Assembly: GCA_027364935.1 (NCBI GenBank)
Contig: DAHXOK010000008.1
Span: 11,853-52,883, forward strand
Reading direction: 5' to 3'
Origin: Vulcanimicrobiota bacterium
GTDB lineage: Bacteria; Vulcanimicrobiota; Vulcanimicrobiia; Vulcanimicrobiales; Vulcanimicrobiaceae
Length of the DNA: 41,031 bases
Shown here: positions 20,048-24,556 of the stretch, piece after piece
Layout of the letters: every line of letters begins with the position of its first letter
Numbering within the stretch: position 1 is the first letter of the stretch
Notes under the pieces: model-generated
What the model saw: the letters and a program-made list of their open reading frames with translations, nothing else
What the model was told of the DNA's origin: nothing
Database searches by the model: none
Made by a program: the position numbers and the translations under genes

Positions 20048-21034
20048 CTAGACGACGGCGTGCAGCATCCGCGGCGTGGCCGCCGGCACCTTCCGCTCGA
20101 AGAGGGCGAGGAAGGCATCCACGATGTTCGGATCCCATTGGGTACCGCGTCCTTCTTCGAGGATCTTCATCGCGGCGCGGGGAGCCATAGCGCGGCGGTA
20201 CGGGCGATCGGTCACCATCGCGTTGAAAGAATCGGCCACGGCGATGACTCGCGCCTCGAACGGAATCGCGTTCCCGCGCAGCTGGTCGGGATAGCCGTTG
20301 CCGTCGAACCGCTCGTGGTGGGAGCGGACGACAAACGCGCAGCGGCGCAGCGAGGGAATTTGCTCGAGGATTCGCGCCCCCGCAGCGGCGTGACCCCGCA
20401 TCACTGCCCATTCCTCGGGCGTCAATGGTCCGGGCTTCTTGAGGATCGCGTCGGGCGTAGCGACCTTGCCGACGTCGTGCAGTAGACCGCACAACTCGAC
20501 GAACTCGACGCCGTCGGAATCGAATCCAAGTGCCGTCGCGAGACGGCGCGCCCACACCGCGGTAGCCTTCGAGTTACAACTCGTCGCCGCATCACGCTCG
20601 GCAAGCATTGCCAACAGCACGTCTGCCGCCCGGTCGACCTCCGTCTGCGTCGTCGCTGTGGAGGGCGTCCCGAACGCGGCGCGCTGCGCCTCGGCTGCAA
20701 GAAGATCGAGAGATGCCACGACCCGCGGGCGGTCTATCGAGTACGATCCTGCAGCAACCGAGATCGAATGCGCTGCGGCGCAGAGCATATCGCTCACGCC
20801 CGCGCGCCCGACCCGGCGCACCTCGCGCTCCGCCCACGTCACCAATCCGATCGGCTTCGAGAGTGCGAGCGAGAGGCACATCCGATCCAAGAGCGTCTCC
20901 AGCGCCGCGTCCGTCGCGGTATCGCCGCTCAGCTCAGGGAGCGTCAGTTGCTCGATCGCGCTGCGTTTCAGCGCTGCGAGGTCCCGTCCCAGGACCTCGC
21001 CGAGCGAAGTAATTGTGATTTCGGGATCGGGCAC
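20048..21034 (-). CDS. HD-GYP domain protein, first metal His replaced
   Basis: A 328-residue cytoplasmic protein. The C-terminal HD-GYP domain (about 150-325) belongs to the cyclic-di-GMP phosphodiesterase family: GLLHDVGKVATPDAILKKPG (His186-Asp187), MRGHAAAGARIL (His215), HHERFDGNGYP (His239, His240, GYP at 247-249), VADSFNAMVTDRPYR (Asp268). The His that usually begins the domain (HSxRV) is Asn154 in the context TSCNSKATAVWARRLA, so one metal ligand appears to be missing; activity may be reduced or altered. The N-terminal 145 residues are helical and unassigned. The GTG start has AAGGA nine bases before it. It is 44 bases downstream of the peptide A gene. Confidence 0.88.
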   Translation of the reverse strand: MPDPEITITSLGEVLGRDLAALKRSAIEQLTLPELSGDTATDAALETLLDRMCLSLALSKPIGLVTWAEREVRRVGRAGVSDMLCAAAHSISVAAGSYSIDRPRVVASLDLLAAEAQRAAFGTPSTATTQTEVDRAADVLLAMLAERDAATSCNSKATAVWARRLATALGFDSDGVEFVELCGLLHDVGKVATPDAILKKPGPLTPEEWAVMRGHAAAGARILEQIPSLRRCAFVVRSHHERFDGNGYPDQLRGNAIPFEARVIAVADSFNAMVTDRPYRRAMAPRAAMKILEEGRGTQWDPNIVDAFLALFERKVPAATPRMLHAVV

Positions 21035-21078: not shown

Positions 21079-21189
21079 TTAGCCTACTCCAGCCGGCGGT
21101 GAGGCTTCCGCTGCGAGCCCGGGAAGCGCGGATACTCCGCCGAGAATATGCATTGCGAACCCGGCAAGGGCGAGCAGAGCAGTTAACAT
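21079..21189 (-). CDS. Small peptide A (36 aa), hydrophobic N-terminus
   Basis: A short frame too small for default gene calling. The ATG at 21189 has a strong ribosome-binding site (AGGAGA, nine bases upstream) and a promoter-like upstream region. The peptide starts MLTALLALAGFAMHILGG, a membrane or signal-like segment, and ends in a small Pro/Ala/Gly-rich tail (EASPPAGVG). After the hydrophobic part ALPGLAA could serve as signal-peptidase site. It sits between the LAL regulator and the HD-GYP gene, on the same strand as both. No known family was recognised; a membrane micro-protein or a secreted signal peptide are both possible. Conservation is untested. Confidence 0.55.
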   Translation of the reverse strand: MLTALLALAGFAMHILGGVSALPGLAAEASPPAGVG

Positions 21190-21226
21190 GTTGTTGGTTC
21201 TCCTGGGTAGAGGTGTTCTCGCCCTC

Positions 21227-21256
21227 AGAATAGTCGAGCGCGGAGCGGACTGTCTC
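21227..21256 (-). promoter_or_regulatory. Candidate promoter of peptide A gene
   Basis: On the minus strand TATTCT (21232-21227) is a reasonable -10 element. About 18 bases upstream is GAGACA, sharing G-A-C-A with the consensus -35. The 16-bp palindrome ends just upstream of the -35, and the ATG at 21189 would leave a leader of about 30 bases. Assignment is by eye. Confidence 0.4.
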
Positions 21257-21272
21257 TACCCAAATTTGGGTA
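21257..21272. promoter_or_regulatory. Perfect 16-bp palindrome, candidate LuxR-type operator
   Basis: TACCCAAATTTGGGTA is a perfect dyad. Its centre lies about 44 bases before the predicted start of the peptide A transcript, next to the -35, which is where LuxR-family activators usually bind. The LAL regulator gene that could act here ends 19 bases away. The element overlaps the neighbouring stem-loop by two bases. Confidence 0.5.
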
Positions 21273-21290
21273 TGCCTGTTTTCAGGCATA
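21271..21290 (-). terminator. Stem-loop just after the LAL regulator stop
   Basis: TATGCCTG and CAGGCATA form a perfect 8-bp stem with a 4-base loop. It begins at the base after the regulator stop codon, so it probably ends or attenuates that transcript. There is no downstream U-run, so it could also be an mRNA-stabilising or processing hairpin. Confidence 0.5.
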
Positions 21291-23942
21291 CTAGCCGAGC
21301 AGCGCTTCGAGCCCCCGATGGTGGATCGCGGTTACGAGCTCCGCCGTCCCACTGCAGTTGAGCTTGGCTATGGCGTGTTTGATGTGCGTCTGGACGGTCA
21401 GGACCGAGCGCTCGGTCTCCGCAGCGATCTCTTTCGGGCTCAGACCCTCGGCCAGAAGGCGAACCACTTTGATCTCGGCTTCGGTGAGCCGCTCCCGCTC
21501 GTTCTCCTGGGCGCCGTTCTTCTTTAAGTGCTCTTCGGCAACCGCGAGAAGCCGCGCAAATCCACCGAGCGCGTGCTCCGAGGCCTGCGCGAGTGCGTCG
21601 TCGATCTCGGCCGGCCGGAACGGCTGGCGCTCGACGCTGCGCAAGAGCTTCGTAACGCCTTCCCTCAGCGCTTCCGCGCTGGGGCGGCCCGAGAGAGCCG
21701 GCCGACGCTTCAGGAGGTTCGCCGCGACCGTCCGACGCCCGGCGACGATCTCGGCAAGGATCCCTAGGAGCTGCGCGATCTCCAGACCGAGCGAAGCAAA
21801 CCCATCCCGCTGCGGCGCTTCGGCGTCGATGGCCGCCATCAGCGCCGCCGTCTCGTCCTTCGATTCTTTGAACTTGCCGTCGAGAGAGAGGCAGAGCGTG
21901 TAGACGGCACGCGCTACGATCCGATCGAAGCCGTGCGCCACGCGATCGAGCACGGTCGCGAGCGCGCTATGCGCTTGCGCGAAGCGCCCCTCCCACGCGT
22001 GACGATACGCGTGGCTCTCGACGACGTACACGCCGCGCGAGGCATCGCTCGTGCGCAGTTCGCCGGCTTGGCGCTCGAGCGCGACCATGCGCTCGACGTT
22101 TCCGCGCCAGGTTTCGATGGCGAGCAACCGCAGCGCCGTTGTCTGCATGCTGAAGATATCGCCGGATTTCGCGGCCGCGCCGGCGGCCTGCTGCGCGTAC
22201 CACAACGCGTAGGGAACGTCGTTCTCGCAATGCCACGCCTCCAGCGCCAGCGTGTCCAACGCGAGACAGGCGAGACTGTGGAGCGAGAGCCGGTTCGCCA
22301 TCTCCGAGCTACGCGCGAGCGCGAAGCGCGCCCGTTGATCCTGACGCAGCTCCCACGCCGCGACGCCAACGCGCTGCAACGTGCGCGCGAGCGAGTCGCT
22401 CTCCTCGAACATCTGCACGACCGATTCTACCCGATCGAGAAGCGCGGTCGCCCGTTCCGCTTCACCGGCTCGCGCGGCGACGACCGCGCGTAAAGCGAGC
22501 GCCTCGGCCAGCAGCGGAGCGGGGACGCCCTCGTCCGTCGTCAACGGATCCAGCACCACGGTCGCGTCCCTGCCTTGGTTCACGTACAGCAGCGCGAGGC
22601 GCATCGCAATCGCCGCGCGTAAGCCGGCGTCTTGGCTGAGCTCGAGGCTGTGCTTCAGCAGCGGCTCCGCCTCCGCAAAGCGTCCGATCGAAGACTCGAG
22701 CACGCCACGCAGCGCGAGGACGACGGGATGCTCGCGCCGATGCTGCTCGGTGAGCGCCGCGATCGCAGAGAGCGCGAGATCTGTATGCCCGGTCGCGAGG
22801 AGGTCGAAGCCTCGCGCTTCAACCAAACGCAGAACCGATGCTTCCGCTCCGGCTTCGGCGTACAGCCGAAGCGCGACGTTCGGCCGCGAGAGCGTCTCCA
22901 TCGCGCCGGCAATGACGCACCGCAAGCGATTCGTCGCCACTTCGCCTTCCAGCGACAACTCGTGCAGGACGAAATCGCGGAACAGGTCGTGACACCGATA
23001 GACGCCGGGCCGCACTTCGTACAAAAACGCAACGCGCTCGCGAAGGTCGCTGATAAGCTTTCTCGCTCGGTCGAATCCGATCGCCACCATGACTTCGACG
23101 TCGATCTCCGAGAGCAGCGATATCGCTTCGAGGAACTGACGCTCCTCGTCGCTGAGCGAGCGGTACACCTGCTCCGCGAGGTATTGATAGATCATCTCGC
23201 GCGTCATCGTGGTGATAGACCGGAGATCCACCGAACGCGTCGAGGTGCGCAGCGCGAAGCTCAGCGCGGTCGGCCACCCTTCGGTGAGGTCGAGGAGCGA
23301 GCGCAGCTCCTCTTCGCGCACGCCGAGCTTGAACGCGGCGGCCGCCTGTTTCGCCTCATCCGTCGTAAAGCAGAGATCGCGCTCGTCGATCATGAGATCG
23401 CAGTCGCCATAGGCAAGCCACGTTCCGACCGGGAGCCCGGCGGCGCTACGCGTCGAGATGATCCAACGAATATGGGTCTTCGTTCGCTCGATGAGCGCGA
23501 CGAAGAACCGGACGACCTCGGGATCCTTCTCCGCGACGTGCAGATCGTCGACGGCGATCGTCCCGCGCCACGCCTTCAGATGTTGGTACATCCACAGCGC
23601 GAGGTCCGCACCGGCGGTGGCGGAGGCGCGGTTGCGCTCGTATGCGCCCGCGAGAGTGCGGCGCGCTTCGGGGGCGACCTCTTCGAGCGCCTCCGTGAAA
23701 CCGCGCAACACGCCGGGCAGCGTGTCGTGCTCGGGGCGCAAGTCGAAGCGCAGCCACGCTTCGTCGAGCTCTCGCAAGAACTGCGATAGCGCAACCGATT
23801 TTCCGTACCCGGCTGGAGCGACGATCAGCGCGATGCGCTGCGTGGCCGCAGCGGCGATGCGGTCTACCACGCGCGGTCTCGGGATCGGCTTGAACGTCCC
23901 GCCGGTTTCGATGCGACCGTCGGGGCGAACCGGACGGATCAT
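21291..23942 (-). CDS. LAL-type (MalT-like) LuxR transcriptional regulator
   Basis: An 883-residue STAND-class regulator. Residues 41-49 are a Walker A loop (APAGYGKS, Lys48) and GTIAVDDLHV near 128-137 is the Walker B. A WH-like region contains YRCHDLFRDFVLHEL, typical of MalT. Residues about 380-780 are helical, TPR-like sensor repeats. The C-terminal LuxR helix-turn-helix (about 816-883) reads LTEAEIKVVRLLAEGLSPKE, then VLTVQTHIKHAIAKL. The ATG at 23942 overlaps the stop of the amidase-like gene as ATGA; a longer in-frame reading from 24053 adds an Arg-rich stretch and is rejected. Such proteins multimerise and activate transcription on binding an inducer plus ATP. The inducer is unknown. 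Confidence 0.93.
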   Translation of the reverse strand: MIRPVRPDGRIETGGTFKPIPRPRVVDRIAAAATQRIALIVAPAGYGKSVALSQFLRELDEAWLRFDLRPEHDTLPGVLRGFTEALEEVAPEARRTLAGAYERNRASATAGADLALWMYQHLKAWRGTIAVDDLHVAEKDPEVVRFFVALIERTKTHIRWIISTRSAAGLPVGTWLAYGDCDLMIDERDLCFTTDEAKQAAAAFKLGVREEELRSLLDLTEGWPTALSFALRTSTRSVDLRSITTMTREMIYQYLAEQVYRSLSDEERQFLEAISLLSEIDVEVMVAIGFDRARKLISDLRERVAFLYEVRPGVYRCHDLFRDFVLHELSLEGEVATNRLRCVIAGAMETLSRPNVALRLYAEAGAEASVLRLVEARGFDLLATGHTDLALSAIAALTEQHRREHPVVLALRGVLESSIGRFAEAEPLLKHSLELSQDAGLRAAIAMRLALLYVNQGRDATVVLDPLTTDEGVPAPLLAEALALRAVVAARAGEAERATALLDRVESVVQMFEESDSLARTLQRVGVAAWELRQDQRARFALARSSEMANRLSLHSLACLALDTLALEAWHCENDVPYALWYAQQAAGAAAKSGDIFSMQTTALRLLAIETWRGNVERMVALERQAGELRTSDASRGVYVVESHAYRHAWEGRFAQAHSALATVLDRVAHGFDRIVARAVYTLCLSLDGKFKESKDETAALMAAIDAEAPQRDGFASLGLEIAQLLGILAEIVAGRRTVAANLLKRRPALSGRPSAEALREGVTKLLRSVERQPFRPAEIDDALAQASEHALGGFARLLAVAEEHLKKNGAQENERERLTEAEIKVVRLLAEGLSPKEIAAETERSVLTVQTHIKHAIAKLNCSGTAELVTAIHHRGLEALLG

Positions 23943-24556
23943 CTCGGATGCCCAACCATTGCGCGAGGCAACGGCACGTGCCCGCGGTCGATCACGCGTC
24001 CGATCCAGTACGCGACGAGCGCGCCAAGCCACTGGAGGCGCGGTGCGAGCCACGCACGCTGCGCCGGACAGGTCATCTCACCGAGTTCGAGCACGTACGC
24101 TCCGTCGGTCGTACGCGCTTGGGCGTAACCGTAGTACTCGCGCAGGCCGATGCTGAAGTTGTCCGGCCGAAACCCGAATCGGAAGTACCGGCCGTACAAA
24201 CGCTTCCACAGCGCGGCCTGCGTGCGGTCTTTCGCGCTGGGATAACCGACCGACGCGGCGCTGCTGCACGCTGGACTCGCGCCGTCGAAATGAACGAATA
24301 CGGCTGCACGAACCGCGTACGTGTCGGGATAATCTGCCGGGAGGCGCACGACGCGAACGCCGTGCTCGCGCAGAACCCGCGTCGCCGCGTCCGCGACGAT
24401 CGGGGTCCACGCGCGCTCTCCGGCGGTACCGAGATAGCAGTGACGCGCGGGGAATCGCGCGCAGCTTTGCGGCCGGCCTTCGTGCCCCGCAGAGATCAGC
24501 ACGTCGTACCCTCGCACGATCGGGGCGGTTACGGGCGGCGACGGTACTACTGCCAT
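23939..24556 (-). CDS. Zn-dependent N-acetylmuramoyl-L-alanine amidase-like protein, no signal peptide
   Basis: A 205-residue protein with the Amidase_3 metal pattern: VLISAGHEGRP (His25), GERAWTPIVADAATRVL (Glu47), AVFVHFDGAS (His89) and VLELGEMTCPAQRAWL (catalytic Glu157 region). Members cleave the amide between muramic acid and peptide stem. Unlike housekeeping amidases there is no Sec or Tat signal (N-terminus MAVVPSPPVTAPIVRGYD) and no cell-wall-binding domain, so it may act in the cytoplasm. It starts three bases after the TPR gene stop and is translationally coupled to the LAL regulator, which suggests a sensory rather than cell-division job (inference). Several cysteines (32, 40, 97, 163) are present. 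Confidence 0.72.
   Translation of the reverse strand: MAVVPSPPVTAPIVRGYDVLISAGHEGRPQSCARFPARHCYLGTAGERAWTPIVADAATRVLREHGVRVVRLPADYPDTYAVRAAVFVHFDGASPACSSAASVGYPSAKDRTQAALWKRLYGRYFRFGFRPDNFSIGLREYYGYAQARTTDGAYVLELGEMTCPAQRAWLAPRLQWLGALVAYWIGRVIDRGHVPLPRAMVGHPR

Follow-up and report, generated by a model that had tools for sequence, protein, structure and literature searches.

A putative peptide autoinduction circuit with a MalT-like LAL receptor and a linked HD-GYP gene in Vulcanimicrobiota

A 36-codon frame between the gene for a LAL (MalT-like) regulator and an HD-GYP gene is a conserved gene under purifying selection, and the locus containing it is likely to be a peptide autoinduction circuit with the LAL protein as receptor (probability roughly 0.68, with no experiment behind it). 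The locus lies on the minus strand of the window, i.e., the whole stretch of 41,031 nucleotides that was analysed, where the LAL gene is followed in order by a dyad, a −35-like hexamer, a −10 element, an AGGAGA site, the 36-codon frame and the HD-GYP gene (Table 1). The genes, the operator, coding and C-terminal conservation, linkage and domain make-up are all established by sequence comparison. A circuit of closely placed regulator, operator and peptide was the original prediction, which is supported, although activity of the circuit is still unproven.

Conservation of the locus and its operator

All coordinates and elements originally predicted held, except for the distance from the LAL stop codon to the dyad, which is 18 rather than 19 bases. 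The perfect 16-bp dyad was confirmed, but the 41-kb window has five perfect palindromes of 16 bp in all, and the dyad alone is therefore unremarkable. The promoter-like pair (spacer of 18 nt between GAGACA and TATTCT) is where it was placed; a sigma-70 consensus scan makes no promoter call there, and the −10 assignment rests on conservation in relatives rather than on that scan. Lack of conservation of the frame or the dyad in relatives had been named as grounds for refutation, and this was not fulfilled: both are conserved in all seven genus genomes that contain the region and also, though their sequences diverge, across the family. The observation is real and its extent larger than stated. 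Three features had been missed: the conserved part of the peptide is its C terminus (PP-x(1-5)-stop), the HD-GYP gene that comes next usually belongs to the module, and some precursors contain tandem peptide copies.

Table 1. Features of the locus (window coordinates)
Feature	Position	Strand	Basis
LAL / MalT-like regulator gene	21291..24053	-	Pfam GerE; NCBIfam MalT below cut-off; PDB profile and fold matches; AlphaFold
LAL stop codon	21291-21293	-	Read from sequence
Dyad operator TACCCAAATTTGGGTA, extended by GAGAC	21257..21272	.	Proposed LAL binding site, without binding data
-35-like GAGACA abutting dyad	21251..21256	-	Sequence; AGAC beside dyad invariant in genus
-10 element TATTCT	21227..21232	-	TAnnnT 31-33 bp from dyad centre in relatives
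Shine-Dalgarno AGGAGA	21199..21204	-	Sequence; CCCAGGAGAAC in 6/7 genus members
36-aa peptide MLTALLALAGFAMHILGGVSALPGLAAEASPPAGVG, proposed pheromone precursor	21079..21189	-	pN/pS; matching position and layout in relatives
PPAGVG codons, proposed mature-signal core	21082..21099	-	PP position across tabulated peptides
HD-GYP protein gene	20048..21034	-	PF13487 5e-40; both HD-GYP motifs
Second dyad TATGCCTG-TTTT-CAGGCATA between LAL stop and operator	21271..21290	.	Largely kept in 5/7 genus members
Extra operator half-site CTACCCA overlapping Shine-Dalgarno	21204..21210	-	TACCCAG kept in 7/7 genus members

The peptide frame runs from an ATG at 21187-21189 to a stop codon at 21079-21081 (minus strand) and is separated by 44 nt from the HD-GYP gene, which has its own AAGGA site. 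The LAL start is probably the ATG at 23942, an inference suggested by conservation.

The window belongs to a genome of Candidatus Eremiobacterota, the phylum of the MAGs that carry the closest LAL genes among named relatives. The LAL gene is found in all eight genomes of the genus (relatives 64 to 92% identical); seven entered the downstream comparison, G005 being left out because the region is cut off. All seven share the order of dyad, TATNCT, Shine-Dalgarno site overlapping CTACCCA, hydrophobic peptide and HD-GYP gene. Their peptides have 26 to 45 aa and a variable middle, with ALPG mid-peptide in six of the seven, and every one ends PP-[AGV]-[GS]-VG-stop. The peptide differs from its nearest relative by 12 synonymous and 6 nonsynonymous changes, and pN/pS pooled over ten close pairs is 0.40 (Fisher 3e-12), against 1.21 and 1.87 in shifted-frame controls on the same pooled pairs. 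Codon-level conservation together with these controls rules out a chance ORF.

LAL relatives (E ≤ 1e-60) occur in 79 of 99 family genomes, and 105 distinct regions after LAL genes were surveyed. The module following close LAL relatives consists of a dyad, a TAnnnT −10 element, a Shine-Dalgarno site, a hydrophobic peptide of 20 to 45 aa, in most cases with the ending PP-x(1-5), and usually an HD-GYP gene. In the LAL groups nearest that of the window, the peptides mostly have 20 to 25 aa and start 63 to 130 nt after the LAL stop codon (e.g., MDLLIDLAIIVGIDIPPSIG, MIVLLALAIVAAIVIPPTPMGG, MSLVLALLALAAAGIVFPPTGG, MLTLIISLILAMAVAPPDPF, and MIAAIVATIAVFAAVAVCYVPPMGG). Hydrophobicity combined with a near-terminal PP characterizes 42 of 58 Shine-Dalgarno-preceded small ORFs in this slot downstream of LAL genes, versus none of 876 small ORFs elsewhere in the same Eremiobacterota contigs (850 kb, both strands counted); a P value for this enrichment is only indicative, as related loci were treated as independent. 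No recognisable peptide follows several LAL genes of genus g46. Such peptide-less loci are possibly decayed or, by analogy with the eavesdropping proposed for some RRNPPA receptors (PMC9765709), possibly eavesdroppers.

Variant arrangements were also seen. Two tandem LAL genes precede one peptide gene in G031, G104, G106, G107, and G108 (e.g., G031:C6:903586-908875), and G100:C44 has a row of four LAL genes. In family f2 (L189-L191), a LAL gene is followed by a dyad, a lipoprotein of 50 to 51 aa ending PDSGG[ML]PPN[LH] and an ORF resembling a degenerate HD-GYP protein; these loci are from the same taxonomic order, and the module seems to extend to a second family.

The case for the operator rests on position, uniqueness and covariation, because per-locus shuffling P values are weak (below 0.05 at 14 of 59 loci) and the automatic dyad pick was wrong for some. 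The 21-bp operator occurs, with ≤3 mismatches, exactly once per genome in six of the seven genus genomes, always at this locus, whereas in the seventh, G002, the site found at this position is a diverged one; with three mismatches allowed, the reversed control gave zero matches. The dyad centre lies ∼74 nt upstream of the start codon (s.d. 4.6) and, wherever the dyad is clear, 31 to 33 bp from a −10 element that is usually TAnnnT. A distance window was built into the dyad search, and an unconstrained pick also gave 31 to 32 for most loci. This distance would place the dyad near −43, where LuxR-type activators act. Arm sequences differ by clade (TACCCA..TGGGTA, TACTGA..TCAGTA, TAGTGA..TCACTA, TCGTCC..GGACGA), yet the two arms remain complementary to each other, and positions 4 to 7 of the arms show several pair types, as in a DNA site that is bound by a dimer and diverges with its protein. 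That coding-type substitutions, a single operator site per genome and peptide enrichment after LAL genes coincide makes the locus more than a product of chance.

A role of the operator as LAL terminator was ruled out, as the T-run is on the other strand and the arms show covariation while keeping a constant distance to the −10 element, and a structured RNA was rejected in the absence of an Rfam match. The second dyad shares two bases with the operator and shows a paired change in G006. The extra half-site may possibly permit repression or looping.

Receptor, precursors and linked genes

By every feature tested (NTPase, TPR-like superhelix, and GerE HTH), the receptor belongs to the LAL regulators. 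The ∼885-aa protein has a STAND NTPase, a TPR superhelix and a C-terminal LuxR-type HTH, with a Walker A motif (APAGYGKS) in which A-P-A-G-x-G-K is invariant in the alignment. Profile searches matched the MalT NTPase (8bob; E 3e-20), TPR proteins and LuxR-type HTHs, and GerE (PF00196, 1e-9) matched residues 820 to 873; the NCBIfam MalT model matches below its cut-off. The AlphaFold model (pLDDT 88) has an N-terminal alpha/beta NTPase, a long helical repeat superhelix (residues ∼336 to 773 all helical) and a C-terminal HTH. Foldseek returned MalT first (8bob, TM 0.77 to the target) and then the TPR-sensor STAND protein PH0952, with MalT domain III (1hz4) among the further matches. Identification as a defence STAND protein was rejected, as PADLOC hits were confined to the HTH and HD parts, with CARF and Cas3 as the models matched. 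A LAL relative without the NTPase is found in G015 (501-aa frame with TPR plus HTH; G015:C1:2927546-2928970; single-contig 3.5-Mb genome), followed by a 20-aa frame (MTRFASPSIDVLFFTQPIGC) ending QPIGC, a 121-aa ORF and a relative of the HD-GYP protein. That the peptide was kept when the NTPase was lost suggests that TPR and peptide belong together, albeit in one genome only.

Of 47 tabulated peptides, 40 have PP among their final 8 residues, and in none does PP fall within the N-terminal 60%. Lys and Arg are entirely absent from 45 of the 47, which makes a classical Sec signal unlikely. We propose the C-terminal end of the window peptide, around SPPAGVG, as the signal, its maturation being inferred; the pheromone is at the C terminus in most RRNPPA propeptides, in which tandem signal copies are also common (PMC9765709). 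Tandem copies occur in the same slot here. In G034, the slot frame MYASRISSISVVPVGGAVSVVPVGGAMSVVPVGGA contains three copies of SVVPVGGA and no obvious hydrophobic segment; each pairwise comparison of the copies gives six codon differences, all synonymous, i.e., at least 10 changes and no replacement. As all eight codons are fourfold degenerate, one-third of random changes would be silent, and the probability of ten out of ten is ∼2e-5 (calculated by hand). G009 has five ADSAGGYVK-type tandem copies after a hydrophobic segment, G080 has five SIxPFPV-type copies, with synonymous differences, behind a lipoprotein signal, and G121 has the start of a similar AGAYPAS array, mostly masked. Lipoprotein signals (LAAC) are present in some, more distant, precursors and would fit with export, itself inferred.

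A second LAL group (L063, L064, L066, L067, L069, L072, L075, L162, L165-L171, and L185-L188 surveyed) often directly precedes ∼400-aa lipoproteins with N-terminal tandem units (e.g., NGATGLPGG, GDNPSALP, ESATGLPG, and DSLSAMPG; ALPG is also found mid-peptide in the genus). These LPG-repeat lipoproteins are conceivably another type of signal precursor. Naming them sedolisins was dropped in the absence of a PDB sequence match, and a 260-aa N-terminal piece gave only a sub-threshold collagen match in Pfam.

The window HD-GYP protein meets both motif criteria, HDxGK (LLHDVGKV) and HHExxDGxGYP (HHERFDGNGYP), and is proposed, from sequence alone, to be the c-di-GMP phosphodiesterase output; Pfam finds no membrane domain in it. 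Both motifs occur in the gene after the peptide at 39 of 58 loci, often <50 nt away, and degenerate or partial HD-GYP relatives follow the peptide at several further loci. In the clade with PPDPF-type peptides, the place of the HD-GYP protein is taken by another small protein (MDEYFIGAGA...) of unknown family, and c-di-GMP turnover is thus the usual but not the sole linked function. The MDEYFIGAGA... protein has ∼150 to 170 aa and lies behind a repeated CACCCAGTTGGCACTCGTCCATGCC motif (L042, L044-L046, and L140-L141); one member, searched as a 70-aa piece only, had no Pfam match.

Proposed circuit and alternative explanations

We predict the following. The LAL protein would be a cytoplasmic receptor and activator that binds the dyad beside the −35 element and turns on the peptide and HD-GYP genes, which, from their position, are likely co-transcribed. 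The pheromone precursor would leave the cell and be trimmed, its C-terminal end becoming the signal, which would return to the cytoplasm and bind the TPR superhelix. Peptide-bound LAL protein, with ATP as for MalT, would then oligomerise on the operator, giving positive feedback and, with increasing population density, a fall in c-di-GMP. From sequence alone we infer that the peptide is exported, matured, re-imported and bound; the direction of regulation and the dependence on density are inferred in the same way.

A bolder reading, which we favor by a narrow margin, is family-wide peptide quorum sensing in a diderm phylum, with MalT-type STAND activators as cytoplasmic pheromone receptors, each having its own operator type and peptide, tandem-copy precursors included; the usual output would be c-di-GMP turnover. 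Covariation of peptide and receptor beyond common descent has not been shown.

The alternative that survives best, though unlikely, is a membrane miniprotein acting in its own cell, e.g., by holding or tuning the LAL or HD-GYP protein at the inner membrane, without any cell-cell signal. The peptides are hydrophobic, mostly 20 to 25 aa long and nearly free of Lys and Arg, and position implies co-transcription with the HD-GYP gene. Against this, it is the C-terminal tail and not the hydrophobic part that is conserved, precursors of the tandem-copy and lipoprotein types are found in the same slot, and the HD-GYP protein has no Pfam membrane domain. Tandem units kept at the protein level are hard to square with a membrane anchor or with a leader peptide.

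There is very little support for such a leader peptide, in which ribosome stalling at Pro-Pro near the stop codon would control translation or transcription of the HD-GYP gene. The location of PP 1 to 5 codons before the stop in most peptides (40/47) and the short gap to the next gene favor it. However, 7 of the 47 have no PP in their last 8 residues, the tandem precursors lack it too, and slot peptides without PP exist (PGPTVG, PANGD, VGGNMG, and tandem copies). Moreover, there is no Rfam match, no coding-strand terminator was found, the HD-GYP gene comes with an AAGGA site of its own, and upkeep of tandem copies at the amino acid level would need another reason. Self-sensing, in which the peptide binds the LAL protein inside the producing cell without export (e.g., as negative feedback), is likewise very improbable: most members lack a clear Sec signal and the G034 tandem precursor lacks a hydrophobic segment, but the hydrophobic N terminus of most members and the lipoprotein signal of several distant ones point to the membrane or beyond.

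Significance and comparison with known systems

Descriptions of peptide communication through cytoplasmic receptors come from Gram-positive Firmicutes and from the mobile elements of these bacteria. In the open-access literature searched, which excludes most subscription papers and preprints, there is no description of LAL/MalT regulators with encoded peptide pheromones or of peptide signalling or quorum sensing in Eremiobacterota. If the autoinduction circuit is confirmed, it would represent a separate, apparently convergent version with a LAL receptor in a phylum with an outer membrane, point to natural ligands for the large class of LAL regulators that are orphans, link signalling by peptides with c-di-GMP and offer many receptor-operator-peptide sets for specificity testing. 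The first member of the phylum to be cultured, Vulcanimicrobium alpinum, has a circular genome of 3,508,363 bp and a typical Gram-negative wall with an LPS-covered outer membrane (PMC9758169), and a relative may be testable in culture.

Enterococcal sex pheromones (cAD1 and cCF10) are cut from lipoprotein precursors and may be compared with the lipoprotein-type precursors of the G080, G121, and f2 genomes. Those pheromones are by-products of signal-peptide cleavage, whereas here it is repeats or tails within the mature part that have the look of a signal. MalT and other LAL regulators share the domain order of NTPase, TPR, and LuxR-type HTH. The inducers known for such regulators are either small metabolites or regulatory proteins; the present LAL gene differs in being adjoined by the gene for a candidate peptide ligand.

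The closest parallels in logic are found among RRNPPA systems. In the streptococcal Rgg/SHP and ComR/ComS systems, a tiny hydrophobic precursor likewise adjoins a TPR-containing transcription factor, a C-terminal signal is expected, the operator lies at the peptide's own promoter and the logic is one of autoinduction. In Rap/Phr, PlcR/PapR, NprR/NprX, and AimR/AimP, some precursors likewise have tandem signal copies (PMC9765709), but the receptors are not homologous to the LAL receptor over their full length. Unlike all of these, the present receptor is a MalT-like STAND NTPase of ∼885 aa with a C-terminal LuxR-type HTH, the phylum is diderm, the peptides have no basic N terminus and an HD-GYP gene is usually linked. 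DNA-binding RRNPPA receptors carry an N-terminal XRE-type HTH. Of the criteria for RRNPPA receptors, the presence of TPRs is met, and a small (250 to 500 aa), NTPase-free receptor is not. As RRNPP_detector requires receptors of 250 to 500 aa (PMC10075063), it could not have found the LAL system. We infer that the LAL-peptide system would work like RRNPPA/SHP systems without being a member of them, given the lack of an XRE HTH, the MalT-like NTPase and the different phylum.
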